Notes under the pieces: model-generated | The model's database searches: none | What the model was told of the DNA's origin: nothing | The model's input: only the letters and a program-made list of their open reading frames with translations | Shown: positions 44,143 to 52,517 of the stretch, piece after piece | How positions within the stretch are numbered: position 1 is the first letter of the stretch | Layout: every line of letters begins with the position of its first letter | Program-made: the position numbers and the translations under genes | Source of the DNA: an uncultured Alistipes sp. | GTDB taxonomy: Bacteria; Bacteroidota; Bacteroidia; Bacteroidales; Rikenellaceae | Length of the DNA: 64,000 nt | Reading direction: 5' to 3' | Assembly (NCBI GenBank): GCA_944321945.1 | Contig: CALUNE010000003.1 | Coordinates: 124,001-188,000, forward strand

Positions 44143-44700
44143 TTATAATATAATGGCCAGGAAACGGACCGTTTTACCATTCAGCGCCTTCATGCCGTGG
44201 GGCAGCGAGGAGTCGAAATAGAGGCTGTCGCCGGGGTCGAGTTCGATCTGCCGGCCGTCGAGCTCGATCAGCAGACGCCCCTCCAGCACGTAGTTCATCT
44301 CCTGCCCGGGGTGGGTATTGAGGTGCATCGGGGCGTCGTCGGGCGCAGGTTCGACGGTCACGATGAAGGGATCGATGCGCCGGTCGCGGAATCCGGCGGC
44401 CAGCGCCTCGTAGCGGTAGGCCTTGCGGCGTTCGACGGCAACGCCCTTGCCGGCGCGGGTGATGAAATAGGCGTTCATGCGGGGCTCCTCGCCGAACATC
44501 AGCACGTCGAGCGGGATGCCGTAACGGCGGGAGATCGTCTGCAGGAGATTGACCGAGATGTCGGACCGGCCGCTTTCGAGCGCCCGGTACTCGTCGAGGG
44601 AGATGTGGCAGCAGTCGGCCAGCTCCTGTTCCGACAATTCGAGGACTTCGCGCAGCCCGCGCAGACGGGTTGCGATCGAGAGAATGGGGTCGTCACACAT
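44143..44700 (-). CDS. XRE-type HTH regulator with cupin sensor domain
   Basis: 185 residues from the ATG at 44700 (MCDDPILSIATRL); the longer open frame upstream runs through the promoter. Residues ~8-65 are an XRE helix-turn-helix (ELSEQELADCCHISLDEYRALE). Residues ~110-180 form a cupin (HPGQEMNYVLEGRLLIELDG, PGDSLYFDSSLPHGM) with the two cupin motifs. Such proteins usually bind a small metabolite and control a neighbouring catabolic gene. Its position 5 bases before the acyl-CoA synthetase suggests autoregulation of that pair. Confidence 0.92.
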   Translation of the reverse strand: MCDDPILSIATRLRGLREVLELSEQELADCCHISLDEYRALESGRSDISVNLLQTISRRYGIPLDVLMFGEEPRMNAYFITRAGKGVAVERRKAYRYEALAAGFRDRRIDPFIVTVEPAPDDAPMHLNTHPGQEMNYVLEGRLLIELDGRQIELDPGDSLYFDSSLPHGMKALNGKTVRFLAIIL

Positions 44701-44754
44701 GGCGTTTCGTTTTTTGGGTGGGAACCGCCGCCCTAACCACGCGGCGATTTCCGG

Positions 44755-44762
44755 TAAAGATA
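44755..44762 (-). promoter_or_regulatory. -7-like box (TATCTTTA) of the regulator/acyl-CoA synthetase operon
   Basis: One mismatch from TAnnTTTG, 54 bases before the ATG on the minus strand. Confidence 0.4.
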
Positions 44763-44888
44763 CGAAAAATTTTTCAAAACTACCAATCTGTCGGTAAAAA
44801 ACGCCGGCAGAGCAGATCCCGCCGCTGCCCGACAACCGTCCGACAACGAGTTCGGAACACCCTTGCAACACAAAAAACGCCCCTGGAA

Positions 44889-44920
44889 TTTGGTTTTTCC
44901 ATTTCGAAACGCTATATTTG
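44889..44920 (+). promoter_or_regulatory. Promoter of the histidine operon
   Basis: TTTG (44889-44892), a 20-base spacer, TATATTTG (44913-44920): full consensus. The leader peptide ATG is 18 bases further, leaving a very short 5' untranslated stretch. Confidence 0.85.
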
Positions 44921-44938
44921 CATCCAACGAGTTCAACC

Positions 44939-45013
44939 ATGATGCAGTTCATCCATATCCATCATCATCACCACCACTTCGACCAAGGGGCGGCGATCGT
45001 GTATGGAGCATGA
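44939..45013 (+). CDS. hisL: Histidine operon leader peptide (attenuator)
   Basis: 24 codons from ATG-ATG to TGA. The peptide begins MMQFIHI, continues with six consecutive His (codons 8-13, CAT and CAC mixed), and ends FDQGAAIVYGA: 7 His in 24 residues. It sits between a consensus promoter and an intrinsic terminator, ahead of hisG. By analogy with enterobacterial hisL, ribosome stalling on His codons when charged tRNA-His is scarce would favour an antiterminator. The mixed codons and native signals argue against a cloning tag. Confidence 0.88.
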   Translation: MMQFIHIHHHHHHFDQGAAIVYGA

Positions 45014-45072
45014 ACGGCAGACTGAACCAGGGATCCGGAAACGGAGCCGGACAGACCGGAAAACGATACATG

Positions 45073-45103
45073 AAGCTCACCCCTCGACGGGTGGGCTTTT
45101 TTA
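45073..45103 (+). terminator. Attenuator terminator of the histidine operon
   Basis: AGCTCACCC and GGGTGGGCT (one G-U) around CTCGAC, followed by TTTTTTAT. It ends ~50 bases before hisG and 60 bases after the leader-peptide stop. One competing pairing seen by eye is 44997-45004 with 45066-45073 (8 pairs), touching its 5' flank. Confidence 0.85.
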
Positions 45104-45114
45104 TTGGCCCATGC

Positions 45115-45123
45115 GGGGGGGGG
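45115..45123 (+). repeat. G9 homopolymer upstream of hisG
   Basis: Nine consecutive G between the attenuator terminator and hisG. Non-coding if hisG starts at 45130 or 45154. Confidence 0.9.
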
Positions 45124-45153
45124 CGAAAAATGACAATCAAACACACACCCGAC

Positions 45154-46005
45154 ATGTTGAGAATAGCAATCCAGGCCAAGGGCCGACTGAACGAACAAAG
45201 CACAAGCCTGCTGGCCGAAGCGGGCATCCAGGTAGCCGAAAGCAAACGCAAACTGATCTCCCGTGCGGAGGGATTCCCGCTGGAGGTGCTCTACCTGCGC
45301 GACGACGACATACCGCAGGCCGTGACGATGGGCGTAGCGGATCTGGGGATCGTGGGGCTGAACGAGGTGGCCGAGAAGGGCTTCCGCGTCGACCAGCTCA
45401 TGGATCTCGGATTCGGCGGCTGCCGTCTCTCGCTGGCCGTGCCGAAGGGCACGGCCTACGACGGCCCCGACTTCTTCCGCGGCAAACGCATCGCCACCTC
45501 CTACCCCAACATCCTCACGCGCTACTTCGCCGAGCGGGGCATCGAGGCCGAAATCCACCGCATCGAGGGTTCGGTCGAGATTGCGCCGGCGGTCGGCATG
45601 TCGGACGCCATCTTCGACATCGTCTCGTCGGGCGGCACACTCATCTCCAACGGACTGGTGGAGGTCGAGAAGGTGCTCTTCTCGGAGGCGGTGCTGATTG
45701 CCAACCCGGATCTGGACCCGGCAAAACGCCGCGAATGCGAGCAGCTGACCTTCCGCTTCAACTCGATTCTGGAGAGCCGCGGCATGAAGTACGTGCTGAT
45801 GAACCTGCCTCAGGAGCGGCTGCAGGAGGCGATCCGCATCCTGCCGGGGATGCGCAGTCCAACGGTGCTGCCGCTGGCGCAGGAGGGGTGGTGCTCGATC
45901 CACGCCGTCATCGCGCAGGAGCAGCTCTGGGAGCGCATCGAACGCCTGAAGGAGATCGGCGCCGAGGGCATTCTGGTCCTGGCTCTCGAAAACATGATCC
46001 GATAA
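45154..46005 (+). CDS. hisG: ATP phosphoribosyltransferase, long form
   Basis: 283 residues from the ATG at 45154 (MLRIAIQAKGRLNEQ), the usual start; an ATG at 45130 would add eight residues. First step of histidine synthesis: joins ATP and PRPP. Motifs GVADLGIVGLNEVAEKG and the PRPP loop VSSGGTLISNGL are present. The C-terminal ~75 residues (LPGMRSPTVLPLAQEGWCSI) are the ACT-like regulatory domain that marks the long, histidine-inhibited form needing no HisZ. First gene of the operon, under the attenuator. Confidence 0.96.
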   Translation: MLRIAIQAKGRLNEQSTSLLAEAGIQVAESKRKLISRAEGFPLEVLYLRDDDIPQAVTMGVADLGIVGLNEVAEKGFRVDQLMDLGFGGCRLSLAVPKGTAYDGPDFFRGKRIATSYPNILTRYFAERGIEAEIHRIEGSVEIAPAVGMSDAIFDIVSSGGTLISNGLVEVEKVLFSEAVLIANPDLDPAKRRECEQLTFRFNSILESRGMKYVLMNLPQERLQEAIRILPGMRSPTVLPLAQEGWCSIHAVIAQEQLWERIERLKEIGAEGILVLALENMIR

Positions 46006-46030: not shown

Positions 46031-47365
46031 ATGCAGATGCTGAAGATATACGACAATCCGCCCCGCAGTGAGTGGGGCCGGCTGAGCGAACGCTGCACGC
46101 GCAGCGAAGAGGAGATCACCGAACAGGTGGCCGCCATCCTGGCGGAGGTGCGCACGGGCGGCGACCGGGCCCTGCGCGAGATTACGCAACGCATCGAAGG
46201 GTACCGTCCCGAACGGTTCGAGATTCCGGCCGAGGAGCTGGAGGCCGCCGCGCGTGCGCTTCCCGAAGCGATGAAGGAGGCACTCCGCACGGCCAAGTCC
46301 CAGATCGAGGCCTTCCACCGCGCCCAGCTGCCCGCCGAGGTCCGCGTCGAGACCCTGCCCGGCGTGCGATGCCTGCAGCGGGCGGTGGCGATCGACCGCG
46401 TGGGACTCTACATTCCGGGGGGCAAGGCGCCGCTCTTCTCGACGGTGCTGATGCTGGCCGTACCGGCGCGGGTGGCGGGCTGCCGCGAGGTGATCCTCTG
46501 CACCCCGGCACGTGCCGACGGGAGCATCGCCCCCGAAATCGCCTGTGCCGCACGGCTCTGCGGCGTCGACCGGGTCTTCGCCGTGGGCGGTGCCCAGGCC
46601 ATTGCCGCCATGGCCTACGGCACGGAGAGCATCCCGCGCGTGGAGAAGATCTTCGGCCCCGGAAACCGCTACGTAACGAAGGCCAAACAGCTGACCGGCG
46701 CCCGTGACGTGGCGATCGACCTCCCGGCCGGGCCGTCGGAGGTGCTGGTGCTGGCCGACGAGGGGGCTTCGCCCGCCTTCGCGGCTGCCGACCTGCTCTC
46801 GCAGGCCGAACACGGCGGCGACAGCCAGGCGGTGCTGGTCTGCCAGACGGCGGACTTCGCCCGGGCCGTACAACGGGCCGTCGAGAAGCAGCTGTCGCAG
46901 CGCCGCCGCGGAGCGATCATCCACGAAGCGCTGCAGCAGAGCCGGATCATCGTGCTGACGGAGCGTGCCGACCGCATCGCCTTCTCGAACACCTACGCCC
47001 CGGAGCACCTGATTCTGTCGATGCGCGATCCGTGGGAGGCGGCCTCGCAGATCACCGCCGCCGGCAGCGTCTTCATCGGGCCGTGGTCGCCCGAGAGCGC
47101 CGGCGACTACGCCTCGGGGACGAACCACACGCTTCCGACCGGAGGCTGGGCCCGTTCGTACAGCGGTGTGAACACCGACTCGTTCCTGCGCAAGATCACC
47201 TTCCAGGAGCTGACGCGCGAGGGGCTTGCCCGCCTGGCCCCGACCATCGAGACAATGGCCCTCGGCGAGGGGCTCGACGCCCATGCCGCCGCCGTGCGCA
47301 TCCGGCTCGAGAGCCCCGAAACACAAGACGAAACCTCCCCGCTGCAAAATCCGAAGCAATCATGA
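46031..47365 (+). CDS. hisD: Histidinol dehydrogenase
   Basis: 444 residues (a second ATG two codons in is equally possible). Oxidises histidinol to histidine with NAD in two steps. Motifs: VGLYIPGGKAPLFSTVLMLAVPA, the GPGNRYVTKAK signature, EHGGDSQAVL with Zn ligand region, and the EHLIL and NHTLPTGGWAR sites. 25 bases after hisG; overlaps hisC by 4 bases (ATGA), implying translational coupling. Confidence 0.97.
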   Translation: MQMLKIYDNPPRSEWGRLSERCTRSEEEITEQVAAILAEVRTGGDRALREITQRIEGYRPERFEIPAEELEAAARALPEAMKEALRTAKSQIEAFHRAQLPAEVRVETLPGVRCLQRAVAIDRVGLYIPGGKAPLFSTVLMLAVPARVAGCREVILCTPARADGSIAPEIACAARLCGVDRVFAVGGAQAIAAMAYGTESIPRVEKIFGPGNRYVTKAKQLTGARDVAIDLPAGPSEVLVLADEGASPAFAAADLLSQAEHGGDSQAVLVCQTADFARAVQRAVEKQLSQRRRGAIIHEALQQSRIIVLTERADRIAFSNTYAPEHLILSMRDPWEAASQITAAGSVFIGPWSPESAGDYASGTNHTLPTGGWARSYSGVNTDSFLRKITFQELTREGLARLAPTIETMALGEGLDAHAAAVRIRLESPETQDETSPLQNPKQS

Positions 47366-48396
47366 GACCCCTTGAAGAGCTGATCCGCCCGAACATCCGG
47401 GCCCTGCAACCCTACTCGACGGCGCGCGACGAATACGCCGGCGGTGCAATCTCGACGTGGCTCGATGCCAACGAGAACCCCTACGACAACGGTGTGAACC
47501 GCTACCCGGATCCGCACCAGCGCGAACTGAAACGCCTCGTCGCCCGGCTGAAGGGGGTGCGCGAGGGGCAGATCTTTCTGGGCAACGGCAGCGACGAGGC
47601 GATCGACCTGGCCTACCGGATCTTCTGCACGCCGGGGCGCGACAACGCCGTCTCGATCGCCCCGACCTACGGCATGTACCGCGTGGCGGCCGACACGAAC
47701 GACATCGAAATGCGCGAAGTGGCGCTCGATGCGGATTACGCCCTGCGGCCCGATGCCCTGCTCGCCGCCGCGGACGAACGCACGAAACTGCTGTGGCTCT
47801 GCTCGCCGAACAACCCCACGGGCAACCGGTTCCCGACCGTGGAGATCGAACGACTGCTGCGGACCTTCCCGGGAATGGTCGTCCTGGATGAGGCCTACAT
47901 CGACTTCGCCTCGGAGCCGGGGTTTCTGGGGCGTCTCGACGAATTTCCGAACCTCATCATCCTGCAGACGCTCTCCAAGGCGTGGGGCATGGCCGGACTG
48001 CGCCTCGGTATGGCCTTTGCCGCAGAGCCCGTGGCCGAGCTCTTCGCCCGGGTGAAATACCCCTACAACATCAACGGCCCGACGCAGGCGGAGGTGATCC
48101 GCCGGCTGGCCCGGCCGGTCGACGCCCAGGTCGCGGAGCTGCGCCGCGAACGGGAACGCACGGCCCGTGCGCTGGCCGAATGCCGGGCCATCGAGCGGGT
48201 CTACCCCTCCGACGCCAACTTCCTGCTGGTACGCACCCCGGCTCCCGATGCACTCTACGAGGCGCTGATCAAGGCGGGAGTCATCGTCCGCAACCGTTCG
48301 CGCGTGCGGGGTTGCGCGGGGTGTCTGCGCATCACCGTCGGCCGTCCCGAGGAGAACGACCTCCTGTTACGAACCGTCCAAAATTTCCACCCATGA
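47362..48396 (+). CDS. hisC: Histidinol-phosphate aminotransferase
   Basis: 344 residues from the ATG overlapping the hisD stop. PLP enzyme: WLDANENPYDNGVNRYPDP (N-terminal family signature), NGSDEAIDL, CSPNNPTGN, VVLDEAYIDFA, LSKAWGMAGLRLG with the Schiff-base Lys, and C-terminal LRITVGRPEEN. Converts imidazole-acetol phosphate to histidinol phosphate. Overlaps hisB by ATGA. Confidence 0.97.
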   Translation: MRPLEELIRPNIRALQPYSTARDEYAGGAISTWLDANENPYDNGVNRYPDPHQRELKRLVARLKGVREGQIFLGNGSDEAIDLAYRIFCTPGRDNAVSIAPTYGMYRVAADTNDIEMREVALDADYALRPDALLAAADERTKLLWLCSPNNPTGNRFPTVEIERLLRTFPGMVVLDEAYIDFASEPGFLGRLDEFPNLIILQTLSKAWGMAGLRLGMAFAAEPVAELFARVKYPYNINGPTQAEVIRRLARPVDAQVAELRRERERTARALAECRAIERVYPSDANFLLVRTPAPDALYEALIKAGVIVRNRSRVRGCAGCLRITVGRPEENDLLLRTVQNFHP

Positions 48397-49520
48397 AAAA
48401 AGCCCTCTTCATCGACCGCGACGGCACGATCCTCGCGGAACCCGCCGACGAACAGATCGACAGCCTCGAGAAAATGGAGTTTATCCCCGGGGTGATTTCG
48501 GCGCTCAAGGCCCTTTCGGCGCTCGATTTCGAGTTGGTCCTGGCCTCGAACCAGGACGGACTGGGAACCCCCGCCTTTCCGGAGGAGACGTTCCTTCCGC
48601 CCCACGAAAAGATGCTCGCGACGCTGCGCGGCGAAGGCGTCATCTTCGACGACCAGCTCATCGACCGCACCTTCGAGCACGACAACGCCCCGACGCGCAA
48701 ACCCCGCACGGGGATGTTCGCCCGCTACCTGGACGGGTCGTACGACCTGGCTGCAAGCTACGTCATCGGCGACCGCGTGACGGATCTCCAACTGGCCCGC
48801 AACCTCGGTGCACGCGGCATTCTGCTCCGTCCGTCGGACGAAGGCCGCCGGATGGTGGCCGAGGCGGGACTGGAGGCCGTCTGCGCTCTGGTGACCGATT
48901 CGTGGGCCGAAGCGGCCGAGTTTATCCGCCGTCCGGAACGGTGTGTCGACCTGCGGCGCCAGACGCGCGAGACGCAGATCCGCGTACGGCTGGACCTCGA
49001 CGGCCGCGGCGACTTCAACGACCGCATCTCGACCGGACTGCGCTTTCTGGACCACATGCTCTCGCAGATCGCCCACCACGGCGGCGTATCGCTGGCCGTC
49101 GAGGCGCAGGGCGATCTGGACATCGACGAGCACCACACCATGGAGGATGTGGCCCTGACGCTGGGCGAGGCCATCGACCGGGCGCTGGGCTCGAAGGCCG
49201 GAATCGCCCGTTACGGATTCGCCCTGCCGATGGACGACAGCTGCGCGCTGGTGCTCCTCGACTTCGGCGGCCGGATCGACTTCGAATGGGAGGTCGCGTT
49301 CCGCCGCGAACGGATCGGCGACGTCCCGACCGAGATGTTCCGCCACTTCTTCCAGTCGCTCTGCTGCGCCGCACGCTGCAACCTGCGGATCGCGGCCCGC
49401 GGCGAGAACGACCACCACAAGGCCGAAGCCATCTTCAAGGCCTTTGCCCGGGCCCTGCGGATGGCCGTCATGCGGCAAGGTTTCGGATACGACATACCCA
49501 GCAGCAAAGGAGTCCTATGA
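48393..49520 (+). CDS. hisB: Bifunctional histidinol-phosphatase / imidazoleglycerol-phosphate dehydratase
   Basis: 375 residues. The N-terminal ~165 residues are a HAD phosphatase ([12 protein letters not shown] with two catalytic Asp, ASNQDGLG). The C-terminal ~200 are IGP dehydratase ([30 protein letters not shown], abbreviated, plus [17 protein letters not shown] and [19 protein letters not shown] Mn-binding His motifs). The fused form is known from Enterobacteria and Bacteroidota. Starts inside the hisC stop (ATGA) and overlaps hisH likewise. Confidence 0.97.
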
Positions 49521-50275
49521 TAGCCGTCGTCGATTATGCCACGGGCAACCTGCGATCGGTTGCCAATGCCCTGCGGCGGGCCGGTGCGGAGTTCACGCTC
49601 ACGGCCGATGCCGCGCTGCTGCGCCGGGCCGAACGGGTGATCCTCCCGGGTGTGGGCGAAGCGTCGAGTGCCATGGCCCGGCTCCGCGAGCGGGGGCTGG
49701 ACGAAGTGCTGCCGACGCTGACCTGCCCCGTGCTGGGAATCTGCATCGGGATGCAGCTGCTGTGCCTTTCGAGCGAGGAGGGCGATGCCGAATGTCTGGG
49801 GCTCTTCCCCACGCGGGTCCGACGCCTGCCCTCCGATGCCGAATCGGGGGCTGGAACCGAGGCTGGAATCCGGGCTGTCGAGGAGATCGGCGGCTCCCCT
49901 TCGGCCGGGTGCCTTCTCGCCGCCGAGACCTTTCCCGCAGTGGGCGGTCTTCTCGCCGGAGGGCCTCTTCCCGCAGGCGGCGGAGGTCTGGCCGGAGAGT
50001 CCCCGACACACCTCCGGCTGAAGATTCCCCACGTCGGTTGGGACACGATCGAGGAATTGCGCTCGCCGCTCTTCGAGGGGGTTCCCGAACAGAGCTACGT
50101 CTACTACGTCCACTCCTACGCGGCGGACCCCTGTCCGGCGACGATCGCCACGACCGACTACGGCCGCCGCTTCAGTGCAGCCCTCCAACGCGACAACTTC
50201 TTCGGCACCCAGTTCCACCCCGAGAAGAGCGGCGCGGTAGGGGCCCGGATCCTGCAGAATTTCCTCAACCTGTAA
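49517..50275 (+). CDS. hisH: Imidazole glycerol phosphate synthase, glutaminase subunit, with repeat insertion
   Basis: 252 residues versus ~200 usual. Class I glutamine amidotransferase: GVGEASSAM oxyanion region, nucleophile C75 ([10 protein letters not shown]), H234 and E236 ([10 protein letters not shown]). Supplies ammonia to HisF. Between VRRLPSDA (~107) and LKIPHVGW (~168) lies an extra ~55-residue Gly/Ala/Pro-rich segment with three imperfect 12-residue repeats ([33 protein letters not shown]). The frame stays open and the catalytic triad is intact, so function is probably kept. Overlaps hisB by ATGA; a 102-base gap follows before hisA, unusually long in this operon. Confidence 0.95.
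49908..50000 (+). repeat. Imperfect ~38-bp tandem repeat inside hisH
   Basis: Units begin at about 49908, 49946 and 49985. The first two share CTTCTCGCCG and TTCCCGCAG blocks; the third is partial. Encodes the 12-residue repeats of the HisH insertion. Confidence 0.7.
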
Positions 50276-50377: not shown

Positions 50378-51109
50378 ATGAAAATCACCATCATACCCGC
50401 CACGGACCTCATCGAAGGCCACTGCGTGCGCCTCACACAGGGCGACTACGCGCGACAGACGATCTACTACCGGGATCCGCTCGAGGCGGCGCTGCGCTTC
50501 GAGGGGGCCGGCATCCGCCGCCTGCATCTGGTCGATCTCGACGGTGCGAAGGCCTCCGAGCCGTGCAACCTACGCACGCTGGAGCGCATCGCCACCCGCA
50601 CGTCGCTCGAGATACAGTACGGCGGCGGCATCAAGAGCCGCGAGGCGTTGCACAGCGTCTTCGACGCCGGAGCCCGACGTGCCATCTGCGGCAGCATCGC
50701 CGTCAGCCGCCCGGAACTCTTCGCCGCCTGGCTGACGGAGTTCGGACCCGAACGGCTGATCCTCGGCGCCGACATCCGCGACGGCCGGGTCGCCGTGAAG
50801 GGGTGGCTCGAAACCTCCCCGACAACGGCCGACGCATTGATCCGCCAATTCCTGCCCCACGGCCTCGAACAGGTCATCTGCACCGACATCTCGCGCGACG
50901 GCATGCTCTGCGGCCCCTCGGCCGAACTCTACGCCGATCTGCAACGACAGTTCCCCACGGTCGAAATCACCGTCAGCGGCGGCATCTCGTCGATGGACGA
51001 CATCCGCCGCCTCGACCGACAGCAACTGCGGAGCGTCATCGTCGGAAAGGCGCTCTACGAAGGACGTATCACCCTCCAGGAACTCGAACGATGCTTGCAA
51101 AACGAATAA
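50378..51109 (+). CDS. hisA: ProFAR isomerase
   Basis: 243 residues, TIM barrel. Isomerises the amino sugar of ProFAR to PRFAR. Starts [20 protein letters not shown]; the first catalytic Asp is kept in PATDL, and the second phosphate-binding half carries [13 protein letters not shown] and VTVSGGISS. Overlaps hisF by 19 bases. Confidence 0.96.
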
Positions 51110-51843
51110 TACCCTGTCTGGACATCCGCGACGGTCAGACCGTCAAGGGCATCCACTTCGAGGGGCTGCGCCGGGTCGGCGACCCCGTGGAACTGGGCGC
51201 CAAATACGCCGCGCAGGGGGCCGACGAACTGGTCTACCTCGACATCAGCGCCACGCAGCAGGGGCGCCGCACCTTCACCGACCTGGTCACGCGCATCGCC
51301 GCGCGCATCGACATTCCGTTCACCGTCGGCGGCGGGATCTCGTCGGTCGAGGATGCCGGACGGCTGCTCGAGGCCGGCGCCGACAAGGTGACGGTCAACA
51401 GCGCCGCCGTGCGCAACCCCGCGCTGATCGACGCCATTGCCGCCCGCTACGGTTCGCAGTTCGTCGTGGCGGCGATCGACGCCCGGCTCGTCGACGGACG
51501 CCGCGTGGTCACGACCCACGGCGGCACCCGCCCCACCGACCGCGAACTCTTCACCTGGGCACACGAATGCGTCGAGCGCGGCGCCGGCGAGATTCTCTTC
51601 ACCTCGATGGACCACGACGGCACGAAGAACGGCTATCCGTGCGAGGTCTTTGCGCGGCTGGCCGAGCTGCCCGTGCCGATCATCGCCTCGGGAGGCGCCG
51701 GCACGGTGGCCCACATCGCCGAGGTCCTCACCCGCGGAGGCGCCGACGCCGCACTGGCCGCCAGCATCTTCCACTACGACGAGATCCCCATCCCGACGCT
51801 CAAGCGCGAACTCCACCGTGCCGGCATTCCGGTCCGGCTCTGA
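51091..51843 (+). CDS. hisF: Imidazole glycerol phosphate synthase, cyclase subunit
   Basis: 250 residues from the ATG at 51091, inside the end of his[21 protein letters not shown] is the family start with catalytic Asp; [38 protein letters not shown] (second catalytic Asp) and ASGGAGT complete the barrel. Partner of HisH: closes the imidazole ring using channelled ammonia. Confidence 0.98.
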
Positions 51844-51896: not shown

Positions 51897-52517
51897 ATGA
51901 AGATTCAAGCCATTCCGTTTACGGACCTCAACCTCGAAAAACTCCCCGGCGGGCTGGTTCCCGCCATCATCCAGGACGACCGCACGCTGCAGGTGCTGAT
52001 GCTGGGCTACATGAACCGCGAAGCCTACGAGAAGAGTCTCGCCGAGGGTCGCGTCACCTTCTACAGCCGCACGCGGCAATGCCTCTGGACCAAGGGCGAA
52101 ACCAGCGGTCACTGGCTGGAGATCGTCTCCGTGGCCGCGGACTGCGACGCCGACACGCTGCTGGTGCGGGTCATCCCCCACGGCCCGACCTGCCACACGG
52201 GATCGAAAACCTGCTTCGGGGCGGCCATCCCCGAGAGCGAAGGGTTCATCCGCTACCTGCAGAGCATCATCCAGGGCCGCCACGCCGAGATGCCCGAAGG
52301 CTCCTACACCTCGAAGCTCTTCACGCGCGGCGTGAACAAGATTGCCCAGAAGGTCGGCGAGGAGGCCGTCGAGACGGTCATCGAGGCCGTGGCCCGCAAC
52401 CGCGACGCCATGATCTACGAAGCCTCGGATCTCATCTACCACCTGCTCGTGCTGCTCGAGGCCACCGGTTGTTCGATCGCCGATCTCGAGCGCGAACTGG
52501 CCCGCCGCCACTCCTGA
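51897..52517 (+). CDS. hisIE: Bifunctional phosphoribosyl-AMP cyclohydrolase / phosphoribosyl-ATP pyrophosphatase
   Basis: 206 residues. N-terminal HisI (LQVLMLGYMNREAYEKSL, VTFYSRTRQCLWTKGETSGH, CDADTLL with Zn/Mg ligands, CHTGSKTCF). C-terminal HisE from ~115 (SYTSKLFTRGVNKIAQKVGEEAVETVIEA, abbreviated, with the acidic metal site). Catalyses steps 2 and 3. Last gene of the operon, 53 bases after hisF. Confidence 0.97.
   Translation: MKIQAIPFTDLNLEKLPGGLVPAIIQDDRTLQVLMLGYMNREAYEKSLAEGRVTFYSRTRQCLWTKGETSGHWLEIVSVAADCDADTLLVRVIPHGPTCHTGSKTCFGAAIPESEGFIRYLQSIIQGRHAEMPEGSYTSKLFTRGVNKIAQKVGEEAVETVIEAVARNRDAMIYEASDLIYHLLVLLEATGCSIADLERELARRHS

Follow-up and report, generated by a model that had tools for sequence, protein, structure and literature searches.

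How does a bacterium of the phylum Bacteroidota adjust the transcription of its histidine operon to the supply of histidine? The question is raised by the 64,000-nucleotide stretch of DNA analysed here (the window), taken from a 2.23-Mb assembly (24 contigs, 77.65% complete), in which a his operon is preceded by a short His-rich open reading frame and a terminator. Attenuation by a leader peptide is a textbook mechanism whose known cases are mostly from Proteobacteria, and Bacteroidota hardly use Shine-Dalgarno sequences. A sequence-only reading had taken the region for a complete attenuation control region of the his operon. The conservation of leader and terminator and a competing antiterminator, predicted from the sequence, support this proposal, and we conclude that the element is, in all likelihood, a ribosome-mediated transcription attenuator sensing charged tRNA-His.

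Promoter, leader and terminator in front of hisG

The promoter, the 24-codon leader, the terminator and hisG were all found where the sequence-only reading had placed them (Table 1), as judged by re-reading of the sequence, a terminator scan and a profile match for hisG. The TTTG and TATATTTG boxes, which we take to be of the Bacteroidota primary sigma type, are 20 bases apart, and 18 more bases lead to the ATG of the leader (44939). Transcription would thus start at about 44926, ~13 bases 5' of the leader. The motif TAnnTTTG was present 5' of 107 of 127 leaders of the sample described below, as compared with 5.1% of mononucleotide shuffles, and 87 of these 107 also had TTG or TTTG 14-26 bases farther 5'.

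Table 1. Positions in the window of the control region and of the his genes
Feature	Position	Strand	Evidence or remark
Promoter -33 box TTTG	44889..44892	+	Sequence; Bacteroidota primary sigma type (presumed)
Promoter -7 box TATATTTG	44913..44920	+	Sequence and conservation of the box 5' of leaders
Leader peptide ORF MMQFIHIHHHHHHFDQGAAIVYGA*, 24 codons	44939..45013	+	ATG 44939, stop TGA 45011-45013; conserved in relatives
Regulatory His codons	44954..44977	+	Codon 6 and codons 8-13: seven His, six consecutive; modelled switch at codons 12-14
Segment 1: His codons, 5' half of protector hairpin	44958..44979	+	Pairs with 44986-45007 in minimum-energy fold
Segment 2: 5' strand of antiterminator	44986..45004	+	44986-44994 and 44997-45004; fold with ribosome stalled
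Segment 3: 3' strand of antiterminator	45066..45084	+	Overlaps 5' arm of terminator
Intrinsic terminator	45074..45102	+	9-bp stem 45074-45082/45089-45097, loop 45083-45088, T6 45097-45102
hisG, ATP phosphoribosyltransferase, first structural gene	45154..46005	+	TIGR00070, 199.2 bits (cut-off 75.75)
hisD	46031..47365	+	TIGR00069, 515 bits
hisC, start approximate	47335..48396	+	TIGR01141, 322.9 bits
hisB (bifunctional), start approximate	48402..49520	+	NF003937, 465.6 bits
hisH, start approximate	49652..50275	+	TIGR01855, 146 bits
hisA	50378..51109	+	TIGR00007, 248.9 bits
hisF, start approximate	51091..51843	+	TIGR00735, 310.9 bits
hisIE, start approximate	51918..52517	+	NF002747, 266.1 bits

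The leader stop lies 60 bases from the terminator stem and 140 bases from hisG. A run of five His codons (CAYx5) has four matches in the assembly of 2.23 Mb. Two of them overlap and correspond to the leader itself, and the remaining two sit within longer open frames. Four consecutive His codons gave many matches in the four genomes reached via named loci. The scan scored the terminator as an 11-pair terminator-like site. The surrounding 12-kb region contained 9 such sites for 10.0 expected, and the site count is therefore no proof by itself. The fold of 44927-45110 beat all 200 shuffles (z -3.21).

The genes 3' of the attenuator are, in order, hisG, hisD, hisC, hisB, hisH, hisA, hisF and hisIE. 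Among the best 80 of 132 relatives, the nearest named match of HisG (99%) was an uncultured Alistipes sp., followed by more Alistipes records. A divergent neighbour on the - strand (44143-44949) weakly matched helix-turn-helix regulators (PuuR model, 37.5 bits, cut-off 211). The window carries seven tRNA genes (Ser, Arg, Trp, Gly, Tyr, Thr, Met), and tRNA-His is not among them. In the same genome, no Leu-rich leader was seen by eye 5' of leuA, and trpE gave no match in this incomplete assembly.

Conservation of the leader and its absence from part of the order

The search for HisG gave a match in 45 of 180 genomes of the genus, 70 of 150 from the family, 144 of 295 from the order and 87 of 198 from the class, the samples overlapping and including the genome of the window. 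From these we took 159 upstream regions, chosen mostly by HisG score and not by the presence of a leader: 44 of the 45 from the genus, 39 of 52 from other genomes of the family, 49 found in the order search and, from the class search, 27 more that were new (three of the same order). Two were too short, leaving 157. G155, where hisG is cut by a contig end, was left out; the attenuator covariance model matches there.

A leader was scored as an ORF of 8-60 amino acids, located within 300 bases, in which a stretch of 8 residues holds at least four His. Such a leader was found in 133 of the 157 regions (that of the window included), as compared with 1/157 on the antisense strand and 3/471 dinucleotide shuffles, and in 127 of these 133 the leader was separated from hisG by a terminator, versus 9/399 shuffles. 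The conservation expected by the sequence-only reading was therefore found. At equal density, the next residues were Ile (23/157) and Ser (20/157). Inspection by eye of the 24 regions without such a leader indicated that about 11 had a weaker leader or had kept the terminator, that 2 (L059 and L094) had a leader about 400 bases 5', and that about 11 had none near hisG, some of these hisG genes being seemingly inside an operon. In L059, L094 and L258, a locus of the second sample below, the His-rich leader is 330-470 bases 5' of hisG, with extra DNA in between.

Could the terminator be real but governed by something other than a ribosome, e.g. a T-box, a riboswitch for His or a protein that binds RNA, with the His codons being incidental? 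Many relatives share the terminator core GGCTTACC/GGTARGCC, which could serve any sensor. However, the enrichment is specific for His, as indicated by the figures above, and the leaders diverge widely in length and in sequence outside the His run, yet remain His-rich. In the leader core of the window's clade, minority letters numbered 8, 23 and 30 at codon positions 1, 2 and 3, the third position being the most variable with the second not far behind. Furthermore, no T-box or riboswitch family of Rfam matched the window or 20 related loci. A non-ribosome switch is therefore improbable. In some distant relatives the terminator differs (CCCCGGC/GCCGGGG, AACCCGTTTGAG) and the end of the leader shifts along with it (by eye, uncounted).

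The variation in length and in sequence outside the His run also argues against a gene for a small His-rich, metal-binding peptide with its own terminator, standing by chance before hisG. Poly-His peptides do bind metals, and the leader has a promoter and a terminator of its own. However, when the covariance model of the attenuator was run over the 180 genus genomes, the 37 top-ranking matches (E values up to 1.2e-7), which include 20 of the model's own sequences, were all beside hisG, and a peptide gene would leave the alternative pairings described below unexplained. We give this explanation hardly any weight. With the same model, 87/180 genus genomes reached E 0.01. Ten weaker matches away from hisG, picked non-randomly and inspected by eye, looked like the ends of genes, or like other DNA, with a terminator behind, and none looked like a leader before a his gene; in three (L220, L221, L224) an HHHY stretch ended an open frame. 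A hisG match was missing from 135 of the 180 genus genomes, including 50 of 70 near-complete ones, indicating that histidine synthesis is often absent in the genus.

A second sample consisted of the best 80 of 132 HisG relatives on named genome contigs, of which 2 were too short and 32 already covered, leaving 46 new loci. Only 10/46 had a leader with at least four His (12 with at least three; 0/46 on the antisense strand with at least four). The HisG proteins of the other 36 (within L250-L311) were 65-73% identical, and the loci carried labels such as Muribaculaceae, Bacteroidaceae, Porphyromonadaceae and Bacteroidales; an example is Duncaniella muris (L310), where 1000 bases 5' of hisG contained no leader by the His criterion. 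L258 had a leader 328 bases 5', and the other 35 had none in the upstream DNA examined. In several leaderless loci a TTTGC-like promoter box was seen by eye directly 5' of hisG. These loci may have lost the leader, or their operon may have a different history. Thus, the leader is widespread but absent from a considerable group within the same order, and is not universal. The first sample, drawn from many families, gives a kinder picture, while the second is dense in the leaderless group.

We also examined 46 further regions across the phylum, in some of which the start of hisG is uncertain. At least four His in 8 residues were found in 14/19 new regions of the same class, in 11/19 of other classes (HisG 42-56% identical) and in 0/8 with a divergent HisG. 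Three loci of one family of another class (L191, L192 and L200, family f197) had nine or ten His codons 5' of hisG with no evident terminator by eye, and are possibly a translational or Rho-dependent variant. They lend something to the idea that the leader acts on translation, by reinitiation at hisG or by access to its start, with no regulated termination. Reinitiation has been proposed for gene-proximal leaders in a passage of Korolev et al. (PMC4833913), with a peak at 11-14 bp in Bacteroidetes. In the window, however, the leader stop is 140 bases from hisG with a terminator in between, and such a terminator accompanies 127/133 leaders, which makes a purely translational role very improbable.

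Alternative pairings and the position of the ribosome

Transcription attenuation by the ribosome requires alternative structures. When the His codons were occupied by a ribosome and the terminator still had no 3' arm, folding predicted two blocks of pairing, 44986-44994 with 45075-45084 and 44997-45004 with 45066-45073. A competing antiterminator is thus predicted, and it includes the one pairing that the sequence-only reading had pointed out (44997-45004 with 45066-45073). That reading had expected an effect on the base of the terminator; the reach is in fact greater, as the other half involves the 5' arm of the terminator and the first loop bases. In the model, segment 2 has two mutually exclusive partners, the His-codon strand and the 5' arm of the terminator. 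In the equilibrium fold of the full-length RNA, the terminator won in every state folded, stalled ribosome included, so that antitermination would need segment 3 to be captured before the 3' arm is synthesized.

Segment 2 paired with the terminator arm so well that at most 5/100 shuffles were as good in 58/127 relatives, for 6.4 expected. Native arms paired better than those of other genomes (mean -9.09 versus -8.15 kcal/mol, p 1.4e-4). Individually, only 78/127 beat their own swapped mean, because the sequence of the arm is largely shared. In the window, the duplex of segments 2 and 3 was not better than with shuffles of its spacer (z 0.27), and for 22 clade members the mean z was -0.57 (p 0.02), the GGGG block being outside the cut of the test in both cases. 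An antiterminator formed via the terminator arm only was no better than shuffles in the window's clade, and extending the arm improved the pairing for some relatives, not for the window. The antiterminator is therefore present in the fold of the window, while its statistical support comes from relatives, the window's own clade giving none.

Further evidence was sought in covariation. Alignment A3 comprised 35 of the 127 sequences, from the second group of the genus and from other genera, hand-picked for a clear GGTAGG-like element, a choice that favours the pairing percentages: 95.6% of the antiterminator cells were paired, as compared with 29-54% in slid controls. Cells changed on both sides numbered 18 versus 5.7 in shuffles (0/500 shuffles as high), though these changes were confined to 2 of 9 pairs (1.7 expected), and the count of additional pair types was 11 versus 10.1. 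The terminator had 94.9% of cells paired in these 35 sequences, with 19 two-sided-changed cells versus 7.0 in shuffles, in 6 pairs versus 2.9. The protector hairpin was paired in 77.7%, a weak signal. In the window's clade (20 of 22 sequences), no measure of covariation of the antiterminator exceeded shuffles, and 80.2% of cells were paired versus 79.4% in shuffles and 36-57% in slid controls. This missing covariation in the window's own clade is the weak point of the case for an attenuator.

The dependence on the ribosome was modelled for the 127 leaders with a footprint of 15 bases from the A-site codon, the stall being placed on the penultimate clustered His codon. Mean sequestration of the terminator arm was 0.70 with the ribosome stalled, 0.22 with it at the stop, 0.46 with it stalled and the spacer shuffled, and 0.33 without ribosome. 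It was higher stalled than at the stop in 123/127 and higher than with a shuffled spacer in 118/127; a ribosome at the stop shortens the spacer, which alone reduces pairing, an effect covered in part by the shuffles. When the ribosome was moved codon by codon, the steepest single-codon drop in sequestration occurred at the last clustered His codon or up to three codons past it (0 to +3) in 86/127, versus 33/127 for shuffled sequences. For the window, sequestration stood at 0.72 with the ribosome on codons 4-12, fell to 0.45 on codon 13 and did not exceed 0.36 farther on, so that the modelled change coincides with the end of the His run. In these modelled folds, the position of the ribosome thus decides the structure.

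The stop codon of the 127 leaders is TAG in 74, TGA in 32 and TAA in 21. It often lies within the antiterminator strand (GGTAGGT in 27/127, GGTAGGC in 18/127, e.g. L024), indicating that it is under pairing constraint. The species of the window and L002 have GGGGCGG in place of GGGGTAG and so do not have the TAG common to most of the clade; their leaders are thus seven codons longer and read across the antiterminator strand (44985-45013).

From these data we infer the following course of events for an attenuator of this type. Transcription would begin ~13 bases before the leader, and a ribosome would translate the leader ORF behind RNA polymerase. Given ample His-tRNA, the ribosome would clear the His codons and, while moving towards the stop (45011-45013), cover segment 2 (44986-45004), leaving segment 3 free, so that the terminator would form and transcription end near 45102. 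With scarce His-tRNA, it would stall at codons 6-13 and open the protector hairpin of segments 1 and 2; the freed segment 2 would pair with segment 3, block the terminator and allow transcription of the his operon from hisG to hisIE. If no ribosome loads, the protector hairpin would form and termination be favoured.

Relation to known attenuators and significance

Passages of PMC8305728 and PMC9413887 describe attenuation of the his operon as classical in enterobacteria. Like the hisL of E. coli and Salmonella (RF00514), the window has a run of His codons in a short leader, alternative RNA structures and a terminator before hisG, in front of a whole his operon. The sequence-only reading had spoken of exactly the enterobacterial layout; this holds for the succession of leader, terminator and hisG, but the details differ. 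A single set of protector, antiterminator and terminator is enough in the window, the promoter is of Bacteroidota type, no Shine-Dalgarno-like sequence was seen by eye before the ATG of the leader, and the stop codon is often inside the antiterminator strand in relatives. In addition, RF00514 gave no match in the window, either at the gathering score or at E up to 5. At a permissive threshold, Rfam gave seven sub-threshold matches in the window, the top leader model being Thr_leader (25.1 bits, gathering 55). Membership of Thr_leader or Phe_leader, the only two leader families among the seven, was rejected, these sub-threshold matches aligning via the terminator and, for Thr_leader, also via the CAY run. 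No Rfam leader family reached its gathering score in the window or in 20 relatives. Thus, the type of switch is already known, and the one described here is in no Rfam family.

The Bacteroid-trp motif is a Trp-codon attenuator before trp genes. Like the present element it is a cis-regulatory RNA of Bacteroidetes, as listed in a table of Weinberg 2010 (RF01692, PMC2864571), but amino acid and sequence differ, and RF01692 had no gathering-score match in the window or 20 related loci. Leader-peptide attenuation is mentioned for Flavobacterium psychrophilum, of the same phylum, in PMC9723704, in a passage that names no amino acid and in an article whose main text does not contain 'histidine'. The his attenuators of Firmicutes (Rodionov 2022, PMC9413887) are described, in the passage concerned, as similar in having three to five consecutive His codons and a terminator and antiterminator before his operons, and in being missed by RF00514; they belong to another phylum, in three small lineages, and 'Bacteroid' is absent from the main text. 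In the relevant passages, a 2021 study of the his genes of this superphylum (PMC8305728) uses 'attenuation' once, for enterobacteria, and a 2010 terminator survey (PMC2965389) states that, before its Firmicutes case, leader-peptide systems were known only in Proteobacteria and Actinobacteria, ermC aside. Among the matches listed in our literature search, titles and abstract openings contained no his attenuation in Bacteroidota; a 2004 study by Vitreschak et al., which reportedly predicted attenuators also in Bacteroidetes/Chlorobi, may hold priority.

It is conceivable that a single ancient his attenuator was the ancestral histidine control of Bacteroidota, passed on together with the operon, with losses in lineages such as those labelled Muribaculaceae, rather than rebuilt repeatedly, and that it reveals synchrony of transcription and translation in the leader. 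We had leaned slightly towards this view; after the second sample (10/46) we lean slightly against it. If it is true, transcription and translation would have to be synchronous at least in this leader, because the switch works only with a ribosome that keeps pace from the first codons, on a leader without Shine-Dalgarno sequence; the leader would then offer an assay to prove such synchrony in Bacteroidota. The geometry of the attenuator is intact before many his operons of the phylum, which could make it a natural reporter of the joint movement of ribosome and RNA polymerase. The element also points to an RNA family missing from Rfam. For the bacterium itself, leader and terminator would very probably serve to turn on the histidine genes only under histidine shortage. 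This suggests a way in which such bacteria fit the synthesis of histidine to its supply, for which close relatives that have no leader are a natural comparison.
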